Source: Anaeromyxobacter dehalogenans 2CP-1 (lineage in GTDB: Bacteria; Myxococcota; Myxococcia; Myxococcales; Anaeromyxobacteraceae). Taken from it: a stretch of 64,000 nucleotides of DNA. Positions 53,674-64,000 of the stretch are shown here, piece by piece (the stretch's first letter is position 1; every line of letters starts with the position of its first letter). The stretch lies in NCBI RefSeq assembly GCF_000022145.1, contig NC_011891.1, forward strand, positions 2,430,001 through 2,494,000, given 5' to 3'. Position numbers and translations under genes: made by a program. Under the pieces are notes generated by a model. It was not told the origin of the DNA, did not search any database, and was given only the letters and a program-made list of their open reading frames with translations.

Positions 53674-55347
53674 TCAGCGCTTCAGCCAGCGGCGCAGCGA
53701 GATCTTGCGCATCCGCAGCGTGGCGAGGTGGTACGCCGCCGCGAACGCGCACAGCACCGCCGCAGCGCCCAGCGCGAGCCCGCCCAGCAGGCCCTCGCCG
53801 CTCGCCAGCACCACCAGCCCCCCCACGGTGAGGCCGGCCGCGAGCAGCCCGAGGAACACCAGCACCGCGAGCGCGCGCACGTGGCCGCCGATCCGGTCGA
53901 TGGCGTCGGAGGCGACGTTCACGCGGAACTTGCCGCCCTCGAGGTCCACCAGGATCTGCGAGAGCTGGGTGGGCACGTCCTCGGCGAGGCCCTGGAGCTT
54001 GAGCAGCGAGCGCATCACCAGGCCGGAGGCGTCGGACGGGTTGAAGCGCGAGAGCAGCAGCTCCTTTGCGTAGGGCAGCCCGACCTCGAGGATGTCGAGC
54101 TTCGGGTACAGCCGGCGGATGATGCCCTCGATGGTGACCGACGCCTTCGCGAGGACCGCGTACTCCTTCGGGATGCGGATGCGGTGGCGGATGGCGAGGT
54201 CGAGGAGGTCCCGCAGCAGCGTGGCGCTGCGGATCTCGTCCAGCCGCAGGCCCAGGTAGCGGTCGAGGATGACGCGGATGTCCTCGCGGAACTCGGTGAT
54301 GGGCGCGCGCGCGTCCGGCACGCCGATCCGGTTCAGCACCCGCGCCACCGTCTCCGGGTCGCGCAGCGCCACCGCCACGATGAGCGTGACGAGCGCCTCC
54401 TGCTGCACGCGCGACAGGCGGCCCACCAAGCCGAAGTCGAGCAGGGCGATGCGGTTCCCCGGCAGCACCAGGATGTTCCCGGGGTGCGGGTCGCCGTGGA
54501 AGAGCCCGTCCTCGAACAGCTGCCGGAACGACGCCTCGATGACGTTGCGGGCCACCTGCTCGAGGTCGAACCCGGCCTCGGCGGTGACGTCGGAGACCTT
54601 CACGCCCTCCACGTAGTCGAGCGTGAGCACGGTGTCGCACGAGAGCGCCTTGTGCACGCGCGGGATCACCAGGAACTCGCGGCCGGCCGACGTCTCGTAC
54701 ATGGCGGTCGCGTTGCGGGCCTCGTTCGAGAAGTCGAGCTCCTCGTGGATGGTCCGGTCGAACTCCTCCATCACGCCGGTGGGCGTGTAGATGCCGGTCT
54801 CCTCGATCACCGCCTCGAGCAGGCCGGCCAGGTCGTGGAGCAGCGCCAGGTCCGACTCGATCTGCTCCCGGATGCGCGGGCGCTGGACCTTCACCACCAC
54901 CTGCACGCCCTCGTGCGTGGTGGCGCGGTGCACCTGCGCGATCGAGGCGCTGGCGAGCGGGACCGGATCCAGCGCGGCGAACAGCGTCTCCACGGGGCGG
55001 CCCAGGCCGCGCTCGATCTCGTCGCGGATCTCGGCGACGCCCACCGGCGGGCAGGCGTCCTGCAGCTTCTCGAGCTCGTCGACCCAGTGCGAGGGCAGCA
55101 CGTCGGGCCGGGAGGAGAGGAGCTGCCCCAGCTTGATGAACGTGGGCCCGAGCTCCCCGAGCATGGTGCGGAAGCGCGCCGCGGTGCTGCGATCCGGGGG
55201 CGGGAGGGGCTCTCCCGGCGGCGGCGCGTCGCGGCCCAGCACGTCCCGCAGCCGCATCCGCTCGAGGTACGCGCCGAAGCCGTGGCGGGCCATGGCGGCC
55301 GAGATCTGCCGCAGCCGGTTGAGATCCTGGAACGCCCGCCCGAGCAT
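53674..55347 (-). CDS. UbiB/ABC1 (ADCK)-family kinase-like protein
   Basis: 557 residues. The family's signature N-terminal extension has the KxGQ motif in LGPTFIKLGQLLSSRPDVLP. It is followed by ALASASIAQVHRA-type A-rich loop residues (PLASASIAQVHRATTHEG), VVKVQRP (lysine), FEDGLFHGDPHPGNILVLP (catalytic loop) and ALLDFGLVGRL (metal-binding). Two C-terminal membrane helices (ALAVLVFLGLLAAGLTVGG, LLGGLALGAAAVLCAFAAAY) are as in UbiB. In other bacteria UbiB supports quinone biosynthesis as an ATPase. No quinone genes are adjacent. Confidence 0.93.
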   Translation of the reverse strand: MLGRAFQDLNRLRQISAAMARHGFGAYLERMRLRDVLGRDAPPPGEPLPPPDRSTAARFRTMLGELGPTFIKLGQLLSSRPDVLPSHWVDELEKLQDACPPVGVAEIRDEIERGLGRPVETLFAALDPVPLASASIAQVHRATTHEGVQVVVKVQRPRIREQIESDLALLHDLAGLLEAVIEETGIYTPTGVMEEFDRTIHEELDFSNEARNATAMYETSAGREFLVIPRVHKALSCDTVLTLDYVEGVKVSDVTAEAGFDLEQVARNVIEASFRQLFEDGLFHGDPHPGNILVLPGNRIALLDFGLVGRLSRVQQEALVTLIVAVALRDPETVARVLNRIGVPDARAPITEFREDIRVILDRYLGLRLDEIRSATLLRDLLDLAIRHRIRIPKEYAVLAKASVTIEGIIRRLYPKLDILEVGLPYAKELLLSRFNPSDASGLVMRSLLKLQGLAEDVPTQLSQILVDLEGGKFRVNVASDAIDRIGGHVRALAVLVFLGLLAAGLTVGGLVVLASGEGLLGGLALGAAAVLCAFAAAYHLATLRMRKISLRRWLKR

Positions 55348-55549: not shown

Positions 55550-56551
55550 ATGTCCAGCCTGCTCCGCACCGTCTGCGCCCCCTGCCTCGCCGCGCTGCTC
55601 GCGAGCGCCTGCAGCGGCGCAGGGCCGGCCGATCCGCCCGTCGCGCCGCCGGCGGATCCCGGAGCGCCCGGAATGCCCACCGGTCCCGGCACGCCCGGCG
55701 ACCCCGGAGCGCCGGGCAACCCGACCGATCCCGGCACGCCGGGCACCCCGGGGACGCCCACCGGCCCGGCGTCGCCGCCGCGGATCTGGGGCGTGACCGT
55801 GGACAATCCCTGGAACCTCCAGCCCACCGTGGACGCGCTGGCGGGGCTGCCGGTCCGGCCGATGGCGCGCGTGGTGTTCGACCTGGGTCAGGCTGCGGGC
55901 GACTACGCGCCGCTCCTCCCCGCCATCCACGCGGTGAGCGACGTGATGGGCGAGCTGGTGGACTCCTTCGAGGTGAGGAACCTCTCGGTGGACGCCTACC
56001 TGGCGCGGCAGCGCGAGTACCTCGACGCCCTCGACGGCTCGGTCGACGTCTGGGAGGTCGGGAACGAGATCAACGGCGAGTGGCTCGGCGAGACCGCCGA
56101 CGTGGTGGCGAAGGTCGCGGGCGCCTTCGACCTCGTGAAGGCGCGCGGGAGGCCGGCCGCCGTGACGCTCTACCAGAACGCGGGGTGCTGGGCGTCGGCC
56201 GACCACGAGATGCTGGCGTGGGCGGAGGCGAACCTGCCGGCGTCGCTGCGCGAGGGCCTCGACTACGTGTGGGTGAGCTATTACGAGGACGACTGCCTCG
56301 GCCTGCAGCCCGACTGGCCCGCGGTGTTCGCGCGGCTGGGGGAGCTCTTCCCGAACGCGCGGCTCGGCATCGGCGAGTGCGGCACCGCCGACGCGGCCTC
56401 GAAGCCGTCGTACCTGAGCCGGTACTACGGCATGGAGCTCGATCACCCGCGGTTCGTGGGCGGGTACTTCTGGTGGTACTTCAGCCAGGACATGGTCCCG
56501 AGCTCGTCGCCGCTGTGGCAGGACCTGCGCGATCTGATCCTCGCCGGCTGA
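55550..56551 (+). CDS. Glycoside-hydrolase-like lipoprotein (copy 1)
   Basis: 333 residues, ATG 8 bases after GGAGGT. A lipoprotein signal with LLASAC makes Cys21 the lipidated residue. Residues ~24-77 are a Gly/Pro linker with collagen-like PGAPG/PGTPG units. The rest is an (alpha/beta)8-type hydrolase: IWGVTVDNPWN, VDVWEVGNEINGEW (candidate acid/base Glu173, clan GH-A style Asn-Glu), YVWVSYYEDDC and RLGIGECGT (candidate nucleophile Glu276). GGYFWWYFSQDMV near the end is strongly conserved with copy 2 (59881-60798). It probably trims the polysaccharide made by the adjacent NfrB-like enzyme. Confidence 0.8.
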   Translation: MSSLLRTVCAPCLAALLASACSGAGPADPPVAPPADPGAPGMPTGPGTPGDPGAPGNPTDPGTPGTPGTPTGPASPPRIWGVTVDNPWNLQPTVDALAGLPVRPMARVVFDLGQAAGDYAPLLPAIHAVSDVMGELVDSFEVRNLSVDAYLARQREYLDALDGSVDVWEVGNEINGEWLGETADVVAKVAGAFDLVKARGRPAAVTLYQNAGCWASADHEMLAWAEANLPASLREGLDYVWVSYYEDDCLGLQPDWPAVFARLGELFPNARLGIGECGTADAASKPSYLSRYYGMELDHPRFVGGYFWWYFSQDMVPSSSPLWQDLRDLILAG

Positions 56552-56578
56552 GCGCCGCCCCTGCCGGCGCGGGGGCGC
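56552..56578. terminator. GC hairpin between convergent genes
   Basis: GCGCCGCCCC (56552-56561) can pair with GGGGGCGC (56571-56578) with one bulge. It lies between convergent stop codons. No T-run. Confidence 0.35.
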
Positions 56579-56584
56579 GGCCGG

Positions 56585-58093
56585 TCAGCTCCGGCGCGCC
56601 TCGCGCACGAGCGGGATCACCCGCTGCCCGTCGCTGCGGGCGGGCCGGCCGCGATCGTCGGCGCCGGCGGCCTGGGCGTCACCGGCGGCGAGCGCCTCCG
56701 CGCTCGGGAACGCGTGCGAGGTCTTCACCCAGCGAAGCGGCTCGCCGGTCACCAGGTGGCGCACGTAGGTGACCACCGCGCGCGCCGTGGCCGCCAGGCT
56801 GATGACGTTCGCGACCAGCAGGCGCGGCAGGCAGAGCGTCGCCAGCCGTGCGCCGTAGAGTCGCCCCACGAAGCCCATCTTCACGCCGACGCGCAGCAGG
56901 AAGCCGGCGAGGTTGACGAGCAGCAGCGCCTGGATCAGCCCGCCGGCGGGGACGATGCGGGCCGGCGACCAGGACGCGCCGGTCATCCCCGCCGTCCAGA
57001 CGCGCACCACCACGTACGCGAGCAGCGCGTACGACAGGGCGAGCAGGGCGTTCGTGAGGACCGCCTTCCGGTCGCGCCAGAGGCAGTAGCGGACCGCCGC
57101 CGGGCCCTGCCAGCCGGCGCTCTCCCAGGTCTGGAGGGAGATGCCGAGGATCCAGCGGGAGCGCTGCCGGACGGACGCCTGGAAGCGATCGGGGAAGTAC
57201 TCCCGGGTGGCGATGGGGTCGTCGTGGGCCGGCGCCTCGGGGTCGTCCGGGTCGGCGGCGATCCGGTAGCACGCGAAGTGCGTGCGCCTGCGGGCGAGCC
57301 GGAAGCGGAGCCCGATCTCGTAGTCCTCGGTGAGGCTGGCCGGGTCGAACGGCTGCTGCGCGTGGGCGAGCGCGATCTGCTCGAACGCGCGCCGCTCGAA
57401 CGCGCTCCCCACGCCCGCGGACGGGATGAGCCCGCCGATGGCCTGGCGCACCGGGAGCTCCTTCAGGTGGTGCTCGGCGAACTCGTCGATGTAGGTCCCC
57501 GCCACGACCTGCGAGGCGTCGAGCGGCAGCGAGAACACCGGCGTCTGCACGAACTCGTGCTTCGGGACGAGCAGGCTGTAGAGCCGCAGCGCGAGCGGGT
57601 GGATCACGTCCTCGGCGTCGTGCATGAGCAGGATGTCGAAGCGCGTCCCGCGCTCCCGCTCGTGCAGCACCACGCCCTGGTAGATCCAGTTCAGGCAGTC
57701 GGCCTTGGAGGTCGGGCCGGCGTGGGGCACCACCACCTTGCGCACCGGCCAGCCGCGCGCGGCCGCCCGGTCCACGCGCGCCTGCGTGGCAGGGTCGTTC
57801 TGGTAGGTCCCGCAGAAGAAGACGTACCGATCCCGCGGGAAGTCGATGCGGGAGACGTTCAGCTCGAGCATGCGCTCGATGACGTCCTCCTCGCGCCACG
57901 CCGGGAGGAGGATGGCGGTGCGCTTCGGCTCGACCCGCCGGAGGAGCGCGGCGGACACCGCCGTCGCCGAGCGCCGGTGGAGGCGCCGCGCCAGGTAGTT
58001 CACGTCGATGAAGAGCTCGTCCAGCTGGTTCAGCAGGATGGCGCCGCCGAGCGGTCCGGCCATGACGCGGGCGATGGTGTCGGGATCGATCAC
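56585..58093 (-). CDS. NfrB-like processive family 2 glycosyltransferase
   Basis: 502 residues, GTG start overlapping the nfrA-like stop (GTGA). Catalytic order: AILLPAWREEDVIE (~60-73), GPTSKADCLNW (~126-135), DAED (159-162, DxD type), TEDYE (255-259) and QRSRW (310-314, the QxxRW motif of processive GT2 enzymes). Membrane helices lie at about 345-365, 385-410 and 425-445, with an N-terminal amphipathic/hydrophobic stretch. It resembles E. coli NfrB but ends shortly after WVKTSHAFPS, without the C-terminal MshEN c-di-GMP-binding domain. It should polymerise a hexosamine-containing glycan and export it across the inner membrane. Confidence 0.87.
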   Translation of the reverse strand: MIDPDTIARVMAGPLGGAILLNQLDELFIDVNYLARRLHRRSATAVSAALLRRVEPKRTAILLPAWREEDVIERMLELNVSRIDFPRDRYVFFCGTYQNDPATQARVDRAAARGWPVRKVVVPHAGPTSKADCLNWIYQGVVLHERERGTRFDILLMHDAEDVIHPLALRLYSLLVPKHEFVQTPVFSLPLDASQVVAGTYIDEFAEHHLKELPVRQAIGGLIPSAGVGSAFERRAFEQIALAHAQQPFDPASLTEDYEIGLRFRLARRRTHFACYRIAADPDDPEAPAHDDPIATREYFPDRFQASVRQRSRWILGISLQTWESAGWQGPAAVRYCLWRDRKAVLTNALLALSYALLAYVVVRVWTAGMTGASWSPARIVPAGGLIQALLLVNLAGFLLRVGVKMGFVGRLYGARLATLCLPRLLVANVISLAATARAVVTYVRHLVTGEPLRWVKTSHAFPSAEALAAGDAQAAGADDRGRPARSDGQRVIPLVREARRS

Positions 58094-59727
58094 GGCGAGC
58101 GCTCGTACGAGGTGACGAGGAGCAGGCGCAGGTCGGTGTAGGTCGCCGGATCGGGGGTGGGCTTCGCCACGCCGAGGATGCGCCCGCGGTTCACCGTCGC
58201 GACCACGTCCACGTGGATGGGGGCGAGCAGGCGGGCCCGGAGGCCCGCGCCGGCGTCCACGAACTGGCCGTATATCTCGCCGTGGACGTCGAGGCCGGAG
58301 CGCCCCTCCGCCACCAGGCCCCACGCCACCGGGCCGGTGAACAGGACCGAGGCCCCGAGCCGGCCGCGCAGGAACGTCCCGCCGTCGTCGTGGTCGCGGT
58401 GGAGCACGCTCGCCTCCCACCAGGCGTCGGCGCACGGGCGCCACCCCAGCTCGACGCCGTGCGCGGGGCGGGGCCAGCACCCGTCGGTCTCGAGGCCGAG
58501 CGTCGCGCCGGCGCGCAGGTCGAGCCGGGTCGCGCCCTGCCGCAGGTCGCCGGCGGTGGGCGACAGGCGCGTCGCAGACCCGGCCTGCGCGAACAGGTCC
58601 AGCCGCTCCTGCCAGGCGCGGTAGAGCACGCCCACCGCCGCGACCATCCCGTCCGCGTAGCTGGGTGGCACCCCGCCCACGGGCGCGCCGCCGCCGAAGT
58701 CGCGCGCCAGGTCGAGCCGGGCGTACAGGCTCACGTCGCGGGCGAGGTCGGGCCGCCACCGGAGCGTCAGCTGCGCGAAGGGGACGAGGTAGCGTCCGGT
58801 GGCGGCGCCCTGCGTGCGGCGCCAGCCGAACGCCTCGAGGTACACCTCGCTCGTCAGGTGGCGGGGGAGCGCGGCCAGGGCCTCGTCGGCGTCGCCGGCG
58901 AGCGTCCGGTCCGGTCCCGTGGCGGCCGTTCGCAGGTGGCGCGCTGCCTCCGAGGGCCGACCCCGCTGCACCGCGAGGTAGCCGAGCTCCGACTCCACGG
59001 TCTGAGGGTCCGCGCCGGCCGCGGCGGCGGCCGCGAACGCCTCCGATGCGCCGTGCAGGTCTCCGCGCGCCTTCCGCCGGTAGGCCTCATCGAGCCAGGA
59101 CGCGTTCAGCTCCCGCAGCGCCTGGCGGGCGAGCTCGGGCCGCGCGCCGCGCGCCGCCTCGGCGAACGCTCGCCGCGCGGCGCCGTCGTCGCCCCGCTCC
59201 GCGGCCGCGTAGCCCGCGTCGAGGCGCGCGCGCTGCGCCGCCTCGAGCGGATCGACCACGGCATCCGCGGCCTCGCCATCCGGTTCCCGGTCACCGGCGG
59301 CTGCGGCGCCCGGCGCGTCCGCGGGCTCCGCGCCGGGACCGCCGCCGGCGCCGACCGCGGGTGCGCCACCTGGGTCCACGTCCCCCGGCCGCCAGGCGGC
59401 CAGCACGATCGCCGGCCCGACCCGTCGCGGCGCCCGTCGCGGCGAGAGGGAGGGCGCCGGCGGCGGCGTCCGCCGCTCGCGCGCGGCGCCCGCGGGGGCG
59501 GGCGCGGGGACCTCTCCTGCCCGCCCGCGCTGGCGGAGGTCCCGCCACGGCGTGGCGCCGGTGCAGAGCATCACCTGGGAGCCCACCACCAGCAGCGTGG
59601 TCGCGACCGCCGCCGAAAGCGCCCCCCAGCGTCGTCGCCGGCGCGCCGGGGGTGGGTCGGCCTCCCGCGGACCTTCACCGTCAGGCGAGGTGGGGCCGGC
59701 TGGAGCGGTGCGGGGCGGCGCGCCCAT
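58090..59727 (-). CDS. NfrA-like TPR / outer-membrane barrel protein
   Basis: 545 residues from ATG 59727. A basic stretch and one hydrophobic helix (about 34-54) anchor it or act as a signal. A disordered Pro/Ala segment (~60-165) leads to TPR-like repeats (AGYAAAERGDDGAARRAFAE, DEAYRRKARGDLHGASEAFA, LGYLAVQRGRPSEAARHL; ~175-300). The C-terminal ~240 residues have alternating beta strands (YLVPFAQLTLRWRP, VSLYARLDLARDFGGG, FLRGRLGASVLFTGPVAWGL, DLRLLLVTSYE) as in the N4-adsorption-protein-A C-terminal domain. It should receive the NfrB product and pass it through the outer membrane. The gene is coupled to nfrB-like by a 4-base overlap. Confidence 0.82.
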   Translation of the reverse strand: MGAPPRTAPAGPTSPDGEGPREADPPPARRRRRWGALSAAVATTLLVVGSQVMLCTGATPWRDLRQRGRAGEVPAPAPAGAARERRTPPPAPSLSPRRAPRRVGPAIVLAAWRPGDVDPGGAPAVGAGGGPGAEPADAPGAAAAGDREPDGEAADAVVDPLEAAQRARLDAGYAAAERGDDGAARRAFAEAARGARPELARQALRELNASWLDEAYRRKARGDLHGASEAFAAAAAAGADPQTVESELGYLAVQRGRPSEAARHLRTAATGPDRTLAGDADEALAALPRHLTSEVYLEAFGWRRTQGAATGRYLVPFAQLTLRWRPDLARDVSLYARLDLARDFGGGAPVGGVPPSYADGMVAAVGVLYRAWQERLDLFAQAGSATRLSPTAGDLRQGATRLDLRAGATLGLETDGCWPRPAHGVELGWRPCADAWWEASVLHRDHDDGGTFLRGRLGASVLFTGPVAWGLVAEGRSGLDVHGEIYGQFVDAGAGLRARLLAPIHVDVVATVNRGRILGVAKPTPDPATYTDLRLLLVTSYERSP

Positions 59728-59880
59728 TTGACGATCCGTGGAATTCGGTCCGTGCGACGGGTGAAACGTGGGGACGCGGTGGCGGCTTGGGGAGGGCGGG
59801 CCGGCCCGGCCTCGGATCCACACGCTCGCCCCCTCGTCGAGCCCTGCGGGCCCCCGCCCGCGCGACGCGTGGCGGGCTTC

Positions 59881-60798
59881 TCAGCGGGCCCGCCGCGCGC
59901 CGGGCAGGGCGCGGGCCTCCGCGTCGCCGGGCACGAGGCTGGCCAGCGACCGCCACAGCGGCCTCGACGCCGGGACCATGTCCTCGCTGAAGTGCCACCA
60001 GAAGTACCCGCCCACGAACCGCGGGTGCGGCGCCCGGATCCGGTAGCACCGCGCGAGCGCGCCCGGCCGGCGGCGGGCGTCCTCCGCGCCGCACTCGCCG
60101 ATGCCGAGGGCAGCGCGCGGGAACAGCGTCCCCAGGCGGCCGAACACCGCGCGCCAGTCCGGCCTGGTCCCCGGGCACTCGTCCTCGTAGTAGCTCAGCC
60201 AGACGTAGTCGACCTCGCGGCGGAGCCCGGGCGAGAGGTGGCGGGCCGCCCAGCGGAAGGCCCCGCGGTCCGGGGGGGTGGCGGAGCAGCCGCCGTCGTA
60301 GTGGAGCGTGATCGCGGTGCGGCCCCCGCGCGCCTTCACCGCCGCGTGCGCGAGCGCCACCTTCGCCGCGACGGTCCGGCTGTCGCCCGTCCACTGACCG
60401 TTGACCTCGTTCCCGACCTCCCAGACGTCCACCAGGGGCCAGAGCGCGTCCAGGTACTCGTGGAGACGGGCGGCGTAAGCGTCCGGGGGGAGGCTCGCCA
60501 GGTCCGAGGAATCCACCAGCAGTCCCATGACGTCGGCGGCGCGACGGATGGCGGCGACCGGCGCGGCGTAGTCGGTGGCCCGCGGCCGCAGGTCGAACAC
60601 GATCCGCGCGGTCGGTCGGCGCGGGAGGCGGGCCAGCGCCTGGACCGTCGGCGCGGTGTTCCAGGGATCGTCCACGGTGACGCCCCACACGCGCCGGCTC
60701 GCGGCCGGCGGAGCGCGCGACGCGGCGCTCGCGACGCCCCACGTCGCCAGGGCGGCGGCGAGGCAGGCGCGGGCCGACCAGGTGCGGAGCGTGGACGT
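59881..60798 (-). CDS. Glycoside-hydrolase-like exported protein (copy 2), apparent ACG start
   Basis: 305 residues if begun at ACG 60796-60798. GGGAGG lies 5 bases upstream, and the resulting N-terminus (STLRTWSARACLAAALATWG...ASA) is a good Sec signal peptide. No ATG, GTG or TTG is in frame nearby. The hydrolase domain is paralogous to copy 1: VWGVTVDDPWN, VDVWEVGNEVNGQW (Glu131), YVWLSYYEDEC, LGIGECGAED (Glu235) and FVGGYFWWHFSEDMV. Unlike copy 1 it has no lipobox or Pro/Gly linker, so it should be periplasmic or secreted. It precedes the nfrA-like gene by 153 bases on the same strand. Confidence 0.8.
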   Translation of the reverse strand, partial: TSTLRTWSARACLAAALATWGVASAASRAPPAASRRVWGVTVDDPWNTAPTVQALARLPRRPTARIVFDLRPRATDYAAPVAAIRRAADVMGLLVDSSDLASLPPDAYAARLHEYLDALWPLVDVWEVGNEVNGQWTGDSRTVAAKVALAHAAVKARGGRTAITLHYDGGCSATPPDRGAFRWAARHLSPGLRREVDYVWLSYYEDECPGTRPDWRAVFGRLGTLFPRAALGIGECGAEDARRRPGALARCYRIRAPHPRFVGGYFWWHFSEDMVPASRPLWRSLASLVPGDAEARALPGARRAR

Positions 60799-60931
60799 GG
60801 CAGCCTCCCGGTCCAGCCGATGCGGCGAACGGACGCACGCAAATGTGCACCCGGCGCCGCCCGGCGGTCGCCACCCGCCGCGGGTTGAAAGCGCCCCGGC
60901 GGCGTTCCTAGCGTGGTCGGTGCCCTCCCGC

Positions 60932-62506
60932 GTGACGACGCGCCGCCCGACCTCGCTGGTGGCGGTCGCATGCCTGGCGTGGCTGCTGGCGGGCGCTGCC
61001 CGCCGCGCGGACGCGGCGTCGACGATGAGCGCTGCGGCCGGCGCGGGCCTCGCCACGCTGGTCCTGTACGACGACGGCGATCCCGCGCTGGCCCGGGCGT
61101 CCGCGATCTCGGCGGCGAACCTGGCCTCGCACTTCGGCCCGTGGCGGACGCTCGCGGTCCGCGATTACCAGCCCGGCGACGCCTCCCGCGCGCGCGCCGT
61201 CATCTACGTCGGGACGGCCGGGGCCGCGCCGCCTCCGCCCGCGCTCGTGGACGAGGTGCTCCAGGGAACGCCGCCGGTCCTGTGGCTGGACGAGGGGCTC
61301 GAGCGTCCCGGGTCGCGGGCGCGCCTGCTCGACCGATACGGCTTCGCGCCGGGCGCCCCGGAGGCGCAGCGCGTCGATCGCGTGCGGTACAAGGGCGTCG
61401 AGCTGTCCCGGGACGCCGACGCGGCGGGGCCGCTCCACACCGTCACGGTCCGCGGCGGGGCCGCGCGGGTGATCGCGTCCGCGGTGACCGCGGACGGCGC
61501 GGAGGTGCCGTGGGCGGTCAGGTCGGGGAGCCTCACCTACGTCGCCGAGAACCCGCTGGTGGCGACCGCCGAGGGCGATCGCTACCTGGCGTTCTGCGAC
61601 CTGCTGTTCGATCTCCTCGCGCCCGCCACGCCCGAGCGCCACCGCGCGCTGGTCCGGATCGAGGACGTCCTGCCCACCGACGACCCGGCGCGGCTGCGGA
61701 GGCTGGCCGACACGCTCGCGGCGGCCGGCGTGCCCTTCGGCGTCGCGATCGTCCCGCTGTACGTGGACGACCGGCGCCCCGATCGGCGCCGGGTGGTGCG
61801 GTGGACGGACGCGCCGGCCGCGCTCGCCGCGCTCCGCTACATGCTGGCCAGGGGCGGGGTCCCGGTGATGCACGGGTACACGCACCAGCGCGACGCCACG
61901 CCCTCCGCGTTCGGCGGCGTCTCCGGCCTGGACTTCGAGTTCTGGACCGGCCGGGTGGACGCCGCCGGCACGGTCCGGCTCGAGGGGCCGGTGCCCGGGG
62001 ACGGCGCCGAGCGCGCCCGACGCCGGGCGCTGCGCGGGCTGCGGGAGCTGGAGCGCGCCGAGATCGACCGGCCCGAGATCTTCGAGTACCCGCACTACGC
62101 CGGGTCGGCCGAGGCGTCCGCCGCGCTCGCGCGGCTGTTCCCGGCGGCGTACCACCGCGGCCTCTACTTCTCGGGACGGCTCGGCGGTCCCGCCGCGGAC
62201 GGCGGCGGTGAGCCGGTGGCGCAGCTGTTCCCGTTCGAGGTGACCGACGTCTACGGGTGGCGGGTGCTGCCGGAGAACCTCGGGCGCTACGCGCCGTACG
62301 GCGGGAGCGGGGTGCGCGCGCGGCGGGTGGAGGACCTCGTGCGCACCGCGCGGGCGAGCCGGGTGGTGCGCGACGGCTTCGCGAGCTTCTTCTTCGACGC
62401 GAGGGACGACCCGCGGGCGCTCGCCGAGATCGTCCGCGGCATCCAGGCGGCGGGCTACGCGTTCGTGAGCCCCCGCGCGCTCGTCCCGCGCCCGCACGGC
62501 AGGTAG
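60932..62506 (+). CDS. Exported DUF2334 polysaccharide-deacetylase-like protein (copy 1)
   Basis: 524 residues from GTG 60932, chosen because it gives a signal peptide (TTRRPTSLVAVACLAWLLAG...ADA) parallel to MTTRR of the next gene; a GTG at 60920 is also possible. The N-terminal ~200 residues are a Rossmann-like domain (LATLVLYDDGDPALARA, RAVIYVGTAG, PPVLWLDEGLE). The NodB-fold domain has RIEDVLPTDDP (~242; the ED supplies metal/acid residues), MHGYTHQ (~312, HxxxH-type), FEYPHYAGS and FFFDARDD. It is probably a metal-dependent deacetylase acting on an exported hexosamine polymer. A -10-like TAGCGT lies 17 bases upstream. Confidence 0.82.
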   Translation: MTTRRPTSLVAVACLAWLLAGAARRADAASTMSAAAGAGLATLVLYDDGDPALARASAISAANLASHFGPWRTLAVRDYQPGDASRARAVIYVGTAGAAPPPPALVDEVLQGTPPVLWLDEGLERPGSRARLLDRYGFAPGAPEAQRVDRVRYKGVELSRDADAAGPLHTVTVRGGAARVIASAVTADGAEVPWAVRSGSLTYVAENPLVATAEGDRYLAFCDLLFDLLAPATPERHRALVRIEDVLPTDDPARLRRLADTLAAAGVPFGVAIVPLYVDDRRPDRRRVVRWTDAPAALAALRYMLARGGVPVMHGYTHQRDATPSAFGGVSGLDFEFWTGRVDAAGTVRLEGPVPGDGAERARRRALRGLRELERAEIDRPEIFEYPHYAGSAEASAALARLFPAAYHRGLYFSGRLGGPAADGGGEPVAQLFPFEVTDVYGWRVLPENLGRYAPYGGSGVRARRVEDLVRTARASRVVRDGFASFFFDARDDPRALAEIVRGIQAAGYAFVSPRALVPRPHGR

Positions 62507-62526
62507 GACCACATGGGAAGGGCCAC

Positions 62527-64000
62527 ATGACGACGCGACGGTGGAAGCGGTGGGGAGGGTGGGTGGCTGCGCTGGCGCTGGCGTCGATGGCCGGCTGGGC
62601 CGCGGCGGCCGGCCAGGACGCGACGAGCGCGCCGCGCGACGACGCTCGCCACGACGGGGCAGCCTCGACGCTGGTGCTCTACGACGAGGGCGGTCCTTGG
62701 GGGTGGATGGGCGAGCTCTACGCGGCGTCGGTCGGCAACCTCGTCTCCCACTTCGGTCGCTGGCGCGCCATGCCGGTCGGGCGCTACCGGGCCGGCGACC
62801 TGGCCCGCCACGACGCCGCCGTATACGTGGGCTCCACCTACGACGAGCCGCTCCCGGCGGCGTTCCTGACCGACGTCCTCGAGCAGCGGACGCCGGTGCT
62901 GTGGGTCGGCGACAACCTGTGGGCGCTCGCCCGGCACGCCGGGAGCGAGCGCTTCCAGCAGCGGTTCGGGTTCCTCCCCGGCGAGTACGATCCGCGCCGC
63001 GTCGAGGCGGTCCGGTACAAGGGGGTCGAGCTCACCCGCGACGCGGTCCACAACGACGCGAAGCTGGTGGGCGTGACCCTGCCGCCCGCCGGCGGCGCGC
63101 GCGTGCTCGCCACCGGCGTCGCCCGGGGCGGGGGCACGCTCCCGTGGGCGGTGCGGGGCGGCCACCTCACGTTCGTCGCCGAGAACCCGCTCACCTACGC
63201 GACCGAGCGCGATCGCTACCTCGCGTTCTGCGACCTGCTGTTCGACCTGCTCGCGCCGGGAACGCCCGAGCGCCACCGCGCGCTGGTCCGGATCGAGGAC
63301 GTGCTGCCGACCGACGACCCCGCGCGCCTGCGCGCGCTGGCGGACGCGCTCGCCGCCGAGGGCGTCCCGTTCGCCGTGGCCGTGATCCCCGTCTACGTGG
63401 ACCCGCGCGCGGCCTACAGCGACGACGGCCGGCCGCAGCGCGTGACCTGGAGCGACGTGCCCGAGGCGGCGGCCGCGCTCCGGTACATGGTCGCGAAGGG
63501 CGGCACGCTGGTCATGCACGGCTACACCCACCAGCTCGGGACGCGGCCGGCGCCCTACACCGGCGTCTCCGGCGACGACTTCGAGTTCTGGACCGCGCAC
63601 GTGGACGCGAACGACCGGGTGGTCCTCGACGGGCCGGCCCCGGGCGACTCCGAGGCGTGGGCGCTCGACCGCGCCCGACGCGGCCTCCGCGAGCTGGAGC
63701 GGGCGGGGCTGGGCAGGCCGGCGATCTTCGAGTACCCGCACTACGCCGGGTCGGCGGCCGACTCGCGCGCGCTCGCGGGCGTGTTCCCGAACGCGTACCA
63801 CCGCGGGCTCTACTTCGCGGGCGTCCTCGGCGGCGAGAAGGGCCCGCCCGCACGGTCCATGGGCCAGTTCTTCCCGTACGAGGTGAACGACGCGTACGGC
63901 TGGCACGTGCTTCCGGAGAACCTGGGGAACTACTCCCCCAAGGCGTTCAACGGGCATCCACCGCGGCTCCCGGACGAGCTCGTCGCGAACGCCCGCGCGA
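62527..64000 (+). CDS. Exported DUF2334 polysaccharide-deacetylase-like protein (copy 2, 3' truncated)
   Basis: The frame is open from ATG 62527 to the window end (491 codons visible, no stop). The signal peptide is MTTRRWKRWGGWVAALALAS with cleavage after AAA near residue 28. The two-domain plan equals that of the preceding gene: STLVLYDEGGPWGWMGELYA, APGTPERHRALVRIEDVLPT (~254), LVMHGYTHQLG (~329), FEFWTAHVD, IFEYPHYAGS, YEVNDAYGWHVLPENLG. Long blocks are nearly identical between the copies, indicating tandem duplication. It starts 20 bases after copy 1, in the same transcript. About 30 C-terminal residues should lie beyond the window. Confidence 0.83.
   Translation, partial: MTTRRWKRWGGWVAALALASMAGWAAAAGQDATSAPRDDARHDGAASTLVLYDEGGPWGWMGELYAASVGNLVSHFGRWRAMPVGRYRAGDLARHDAAVYVGSTYDEPLPAAFLTDVLEQRTPVLWVGDNLWALARHAGSERFQQRFGFLPGEYDPRRVEAVRYKGVELTRDAVHNDAKLVGVTLPPAGGARVLATGVARGGGTLPWAVRGGHLTFVAENPLTYATERDRYLAFCDLLFDLLAPGTPERHRALVRIEDVLPTDDPARLRALADALAAEGVPFAVAVIPVYVDPRAAYSDDGRPQRVTWSDVPEAAAALRYMVAKGGTLVMHGYTHQLGTRPAPYTGVSGDDFEFWTAHVDANDRVVLDGPAPGDSEAWALDRARRGLRELERAGLGRPAIFEYPHYAGSAADSRALAGVFPNAYHRGLYFAGVLGGEKGPPARSMGQFFPYEVNDAYGWHVLPENLGNYSPKAFNGHPPRLPDELVANARA

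Follow-up and report, generated by a model that had tools for sequence, protein, structure and literature searches.

Among the described systems closest to the locus reported here is NfrBA-YbcH of Escherichia coli (NGR, N4 glycan receptor). In the proposed model, NfrB polymerises UDP-ManNAc, NfrA exports the chain and YbcH is auxiliary (PMC8669469, PMC8669472). The third gene, ybcH (DUF4434), encodes an auxiliary periplasmic protein (PMC8669469), so a first reading of our locus, made from the sequence only, was right to present NfrA and NfrB as a synthase/exporter pair but not to present the pair as the whole E. coli machinery. PMC8669472 also describes an nfr cluster in Achromobacter xylosoxidans with BcsB and O-acetyltransferases, in which Nfr is likewise extended by modification genes. 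PgaABCD, the poly-GlcNAc system, combines a GT2 synthase, a TPR/barrel porin and a periplasmic deacetylase and hydrolase.

Here we describe six genes of Anaeromyxobacter dehalogenans 2CP-1 that probably serve the synthesis, trimming, deacetylation and export of a surface sugar polymer. The window, meaning the whole stretch of 64,000 nucleotides that was analysed, comes from a genome of one contig of 5,029,329 bases. We consider it likely that the six genes form an extended Nfr system for making and secreting an exopolysaccharide, which would be a ManNAc-based polymer that is deacetylated and cut during export. Since E. coli Nfr already has the auxiliary YbcH, the island is a variant of Nfr and does not call for a separate category. 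The sequence-only reading knew of no described system that joins an Nfr pair to such processing enzymes; its idea of an Nfr system with processing enzymes held in outline, and no such system was found in the literature searched.

An inserted island between aarF and mutS

The features of the locus, in window coordinates, are as follows.

55387-64196 (running beyond the window end at 64000), no strand: acquired island between aarF and mutS, 8.8 kb
53674-55335, minus strand: aarF, left flank of the island
55550-56551, plus strand: GH1, predicted exported glycosidase of the clan GH-A type and probably a lipoprotein (LASAC); has a Gly/Pro-rich linker, keeps the catalytic NE and GECG and shares 56% identity with GH2
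56585-58093, minus strand: NfrB-like GT2 polysaccharide synthase without MshEN; PF13641 and NF011304; DAED, TED and QRSRW
58090-59727, minus strand: NfrA-like TPR protein and predicted outer-membrane beta-barrel exporter, from a structure model and a profile match to canonical NfrA
59881 to about 60816, minus strand: GH2, predicted exported glycosidase of the clan GH-A type whose start codon is uncertain; (beta/alpha)8 model
60920-62506, plus strand: DUF2334 protein 1, putative NodB-like deacetylase with an N-terminal domain and signal peptide; PF10096; ED and HGxTH
62527-64188 (the window ends at 64000), plus strand: DUF2334 protein 2, putative NodB-like deacetylase; PF10096; ED and HGxTH; ORF of 553 aa
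64219 onward, plus strand: mutS, right flank of the island

All six consecutive ORFs claimed by the sequence-only reading were present and intact; the genome sequence showed that the second DUF2334 gene extends 188 bases beyond the window end. The stop of the NfrA-like gene overlaps the start of the GT2 gene. In each of the seven other Anaeromyxobacter genomes with a detected aarF gene, mutS was its direct neighbour and the site was empty, so that the six genes represent one inserted unit. The match of the two closest of these genomes to the window ended at about 55386 and restarted at about 64197, and the 8.8-kb insertion takes the place of about 20 bases of the aarF/mutS intergenic region. 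Gain of the island by insertion is more likely than its loss in all seven relatives. Inspection of the junctions revealed no mobile-element gene and no obvious duplication of target sequence, and the G+C content of the island was host-like. The GT2, GH and DUF2334 proteins were each found in just 2-3 of 195 Myxococcota genomes, and the conserved neighbourhood that the earlier reading had proposed to look for across Myxococcota was thus sporadic. Downstream of mutS lie two tandem genes (L004, equivalent to window coordinates 66941-67729) whose exported products, about 92-95 aa long, contain several CxxCH haem motifs and are probably small multihaem c-type cytochromes.

Comparison of the six proteins with Nfr and Pga components

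The GT2 protein matched PF13641 (Pfam, E 2.2e-39) and scored 1186.8 bits against NCBIfam NF011304, over the cut-off of 604. Its motifs DAED, TED and QRSRW correspond to the DxD, TED and QxxRW motifs that it has in common with E. coli NfrB, and in these respects the earlier label of an NfrB-like GT2 held. It did not extend to NfrB itself: the score against the NfrB equivalog PRK11234 (NCBIfam) was 367.6 bits, below the cut-off of 1170, and in an NfrB tree, rooted by midpoint only, the GT2 fell in a supported myxobacterial clade (100/99) that is separate from and sister to the E. coli NfrB clade (100/99). A Pfam search gave no MshEN match in the GT2; its GT2 domain is followed by a tail of only 26 aa, which means that this c-di-GMP domain is absent. 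In contrast, 1,705 of 1,841 NfrB homologues carry MshEN at the C-terminus (PMC8669469). With this domain missing, c-di-GMP control of the synthase through it is unlikely. Judged by tail length, 7 of 10 NfrB-like synthases adjoining DUF2334 or GH genes lacked a C-terminal MshEN, and most others kept it; the loci concerned were the window GT2 and L017, L018, L026, L046, L117 and L156. Loss of c-di-GMP control may, from these sequences, go together with DUF2334/GH enzymes.

The sequence-only reading had also labelled the protein encoded at 58090-59727 NfrA-like and expected profile searches to place it in the NfrA C-terminal family. The Pfam model NfrA_C (PF13283) had no match in this protein at E<=1, which counts against the NfrA label; the same model matched the L046 and L026 proteins at about 1e-30. 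What stood was a more distant likeness. The profile of the family matched the canonical NfrA profile with a probability of 96.5 over 288 columns, with TPR and barrel together, in one comparison to which its E-value is confined, and an AlphaFold2 model (pLDDT 80, pTM 0.68) placed seven TPR-like helices before a barrel of twelve long strands, versus the 16 strands reported for E. coli NfrA in PMC8669472. The best Foldseek match of the model was BcsC at a low TM-score of 0.35. When hhalign was used to compare the profile with single sequences, PgaA (prob 0.9) and BcsC gave null results; E. coli NfrA as a single sequence also scored low (prob 3.3, a weak match that covered the TPR part alone), and thus the PgaA and BcsC nulls are not symmetric with the profile-profile result. 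Taken from profile and model, the protein is NfrA-like, a predicted distant relative and not NfrA proper.

The two exported GH proteins are paralogues as had been claimed, with the identity given above, and neither matched a family model in Pfam or NCBIfam. The GH2 structure model was a (beta/alpha)8 barrel (pLDDT 77.6) with N-E137 at beta4 (strand 131-138) and E241 at beta7 (strand 236-243), which is the clan GH-A arrangement. Both catalytic Glu were invariant in four GH sequences, both window copies included, and VIA-align of the GH2 model with GH1-family glycosidases gave a Z of about 20 over 253-260 residues. We describe both as predicted clan GH-A-type glycosidases. Assignment to a single CAZy family by fold failed because many GH-A families tied, homology to YbcH was rejected by a profile comparison (prob 1.6), and a search by sequence for solved relatives gave chance-level matches only. 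In GH1, the Gly/Pro-rich linker that joins the lipobox to the catalytic domain (window 55660-55780) is collagen-like, and a weak Pfam Collagen match, below cut-off, was restricted to it.

The tandem exported DUF2334 proteins of the earlier reading were likewise confirmed: they are 56% identical, and PF10096 (Pfam DUF2334) matched protein 1 with an E of 7.7e-38 and protein 2 with an E of 6.7e-49. This family is one that we take to be a member of the NodB superfamily. The N-terminal domain of DUF2334 proteins of this kind, some 200 residues long, has no family assignment. E257-D258, H331 and H335 are kept in both copies (ED plus HGxTH, a D-H-H motif), and D258, H331 and H335 were invariant in 10 DUF2334 sequences spanning three phyla, a pattern consistent with a NodB-type metal site. 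Searches by sequence for solved relatives gave chance-level matches only, and a relationship to PgaB was rejected by hhalign (prob 0.3). No report of DUF2334 deacetylation or of a tested deacetylase activity was found in the literature searched, so the activity proposed below is one that we infer.

Compared to E. coli NfrBA-YbcH, the island thus has the GT2 motifs, the TPR and outer-membrane barrel partner and exported auxiliary proteins in common. A putative supply of UDP-ManNAc by WecB is also common to both, but here the WecB homologues, two Epimerase_2 genes, are elsewhere in the genome and none is within the island. The island lacks MshEN, YbcH/DUF4434 (no match within the window) and an NfrA_C match, has the order nfrA-nfrB instead of nfrB-nfrA, and adds the DUF2334 and GH pairs. 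The Achromobacter xylosoxidans cluster adds acetyl groups and the island would remove them; the available part of PMC8669472 does not mention DUF2334 or GH for that cluster. The parallel with PgaABCD drawn by the sequence-only reading held for the layout; neither PgaB nor PgaA showed detectable homology in the comparisons above, and the putative deacetylase and hydrolase of the island are separate genes.

Linkage of DUF2334 and GH genes to nfr operons

Linkage was examined with DUF2334-only and GH-only queries, and the counts are small and descriptive. Five of six loci found with DUF2334-only queries were linked, namely four complete nfr operons and a wecB/GT2 locus on a Streptomyces plasmid. 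The operons were wecB-nfrB-hypothetical-DUF2334-nfrA-ybcH on the Comamonadaceae plasmid CP099603 (L117), those of two Comamonadaceae genomes (L123, L124), and DUF2334-wecB-nfrB-nfrA-ybcH with a convergent GH gene in Burkholderiales G932 (L156), which the GH-only query also found and which carries the whole set of complete nfr operon, DUF2334 and GH. The unlinked case was a Burkholderia plasmid gene (L118) beside diguanylate cyclases and without nfr neighbours. The GH-only query matched twice in 369 genomes, and both matches adjoin nfrA-ybcH (L156 and L155, the latter reading nfrA-ybcH-GH). The claim that an Nfr-like pair is joined to DUF2334 and GH genes was in this way upheld by queries that contained neither nfr gene.

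Further arrangements came from a GT2-selected search: nfrA-nfrB-wecB-DUF2334-GH in Hyalangium, nfrA-nfrB-wecB-ybcH-DUF2334 in Sorangium, DUF2334-nfrA-nfrB in a Myxococcales MAG, GH-wecB-nfrB-TPR-nfrA-ybcH in Rokubacteria and wecB-nfrB-DUF2334-nfrA-ybcH in Variovorax (L046). Across several bacterial phyla, the DUF2334 and GH families recur as neighbours of nfr genes. Loci with DUF2334 or GH occupied at least three separated branches of the NfrB tree, which argues for repeated association over one inherited accident. The linkage was asymmetric: no DUF2334, GH or nfrA gene lay near most of the 80 GT2 relatives, many of these being from Acidobacteria. Among L025-L096 (Bryobacterales and other Acidobacteria), a large set of NfrB-like GT2 proteins branched deeply, and flanks of up to 10 kb on each side of their genes gave no detected homologue of nfrA, wecB or ybcH.

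The betaproteobacterial operons of L046, L117 and L156 share with the island the synthase, the exporter and a long-type DUF2334; L156 has the same GH family, and the three NfrB proteins also lack MshEN. Unlike the island, they have a canonical NfrA (NfrA_C confirmed in L046), YbcH, wecB in the operon and single copies. Double copies of both GH and DUF2334 occurred in this genome alone among the loci seen, and because the duplication is local, the "dual-processing machine" of the sequence-only reading was an overstatement.

Three other loci stood apart. The Streptomyces plasmid NZ_CP108510 carries GH16-wecB-GT2-DUF2334-GH113 (L116:4652-11665, DUF2334-only query) in a host without an outer membrane, which suggests that the polymer module does not always need NfrA. 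A myxobacterial-type MAG (L022:1-7731) encodes an NfrB-like synthase with MshEN, followed by a gene for BcsB, a subunit of cellulose synthase, and an NfrA-like TPR/barrel protein; this is possibly an Nfr/Bcs hybrid like the Achromobacter cluster of PMC8669472. On a 4.3-kb contig of another Myxococcota genome (L016:1663-4278), the gene after a GH relative encodes a lipoprotein-like protein of the right-handed beta-helix type.

Proposed mechanism, alternatives and significance

In the mechanism that we favour, the GT2 would polymerise UDP-ManNAc and move the chain across the inner membrane, as NfrB suggests, with UDP-ManNAc made by one of the two WecB homologues. The DUF2334 proteins would partly deacetylate the chain, and cleavage by the GH enzymes would serve its release, clearance or sizing; we propose both roles because of the fold and the conserved neighbourhoods, with PgaB and PelA as analogues. 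Processing would take place before and during export through the NfrA-like barrel. The duplicated enzymes might, speculatively, divide periplasmic from surface roles or act at different chain positions. A broader version, which we offer tentatively and would not yet bet on, holds that the island belongs to an undescribed phylum-spanning Nfr class in which DUF2334 partly N-deacetylates a ManNAc polymer to give a polycationic mannosamine polymer that a new clan GH-A family cuts. If this is true, DUF2334 would acquire a function, as the first deacetylase encoded by a host itself that acts on a glycan of the N4-receptor type.

The same machine might have another chemistry, with a polymer from the sister-clade synthase that contains, for example, GlcNAc, GalNAc or a mixture, and with DUF2334 acting as an O-acetyl esterase or on some other target. 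The separate clade of the GT2, its score below the NfrB equivalog cut-off and the absence of wecB from the island fit this view, but most DUF2334 loci have wecB nearby, as does the GT2 gene in the closely related Sorangium and Hyalangium, and the Streptomyces locus contains GH113, a family known for mannanases; we judge a different chemistry unlikely. It is less probable still that the GH and DUF2334 proteins target foreign or prey polysaccharides and are beside the synthase incidentally. Myxobacteria secrete many hydrolases, and GH relatives without nfr genes were found in Fusobacterium (L119) and in L016, but this proposal is at odds with the repeated linkage to complete nfr operons in distant lineages, obtained with DUF-only or GH-only queries, and with the presence of all six genes within one inserted island. 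That the island was recently acquired and is silent or non-functional in its host would fit its strain-sporadic occurrence, a synthase without regulatory domain and the missing wecB, but seems very improbable given that the ORFs are all intact, both members of each pair retain the catalytic motifs, the G+C is host-like and WecB is encoded elsewhere in the genome.

An extended Nfr-type system remains the preferred reading, and the island is a sporadic variant of the known Nfr kind, not a lineage-wide one. It also indicates that an Nfr-type system is able to move as one compact island. The locus points to a testable role, the processing of an Nfr polymer, for the uncharacterised DUF2334 domain and for a GH family that has no Pfam or NCBIfam model. 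Purified DUF2334 and GH enzymes would make the chemistry of the Nfr glycan approachable by serving as probes. According to PMC8669472, N4-like phages that use the Nfr glycan carry glycan deacetylase tailspikes, so susceptibility to phages could be influenced by a host enzyme that deacetylates this polymer.
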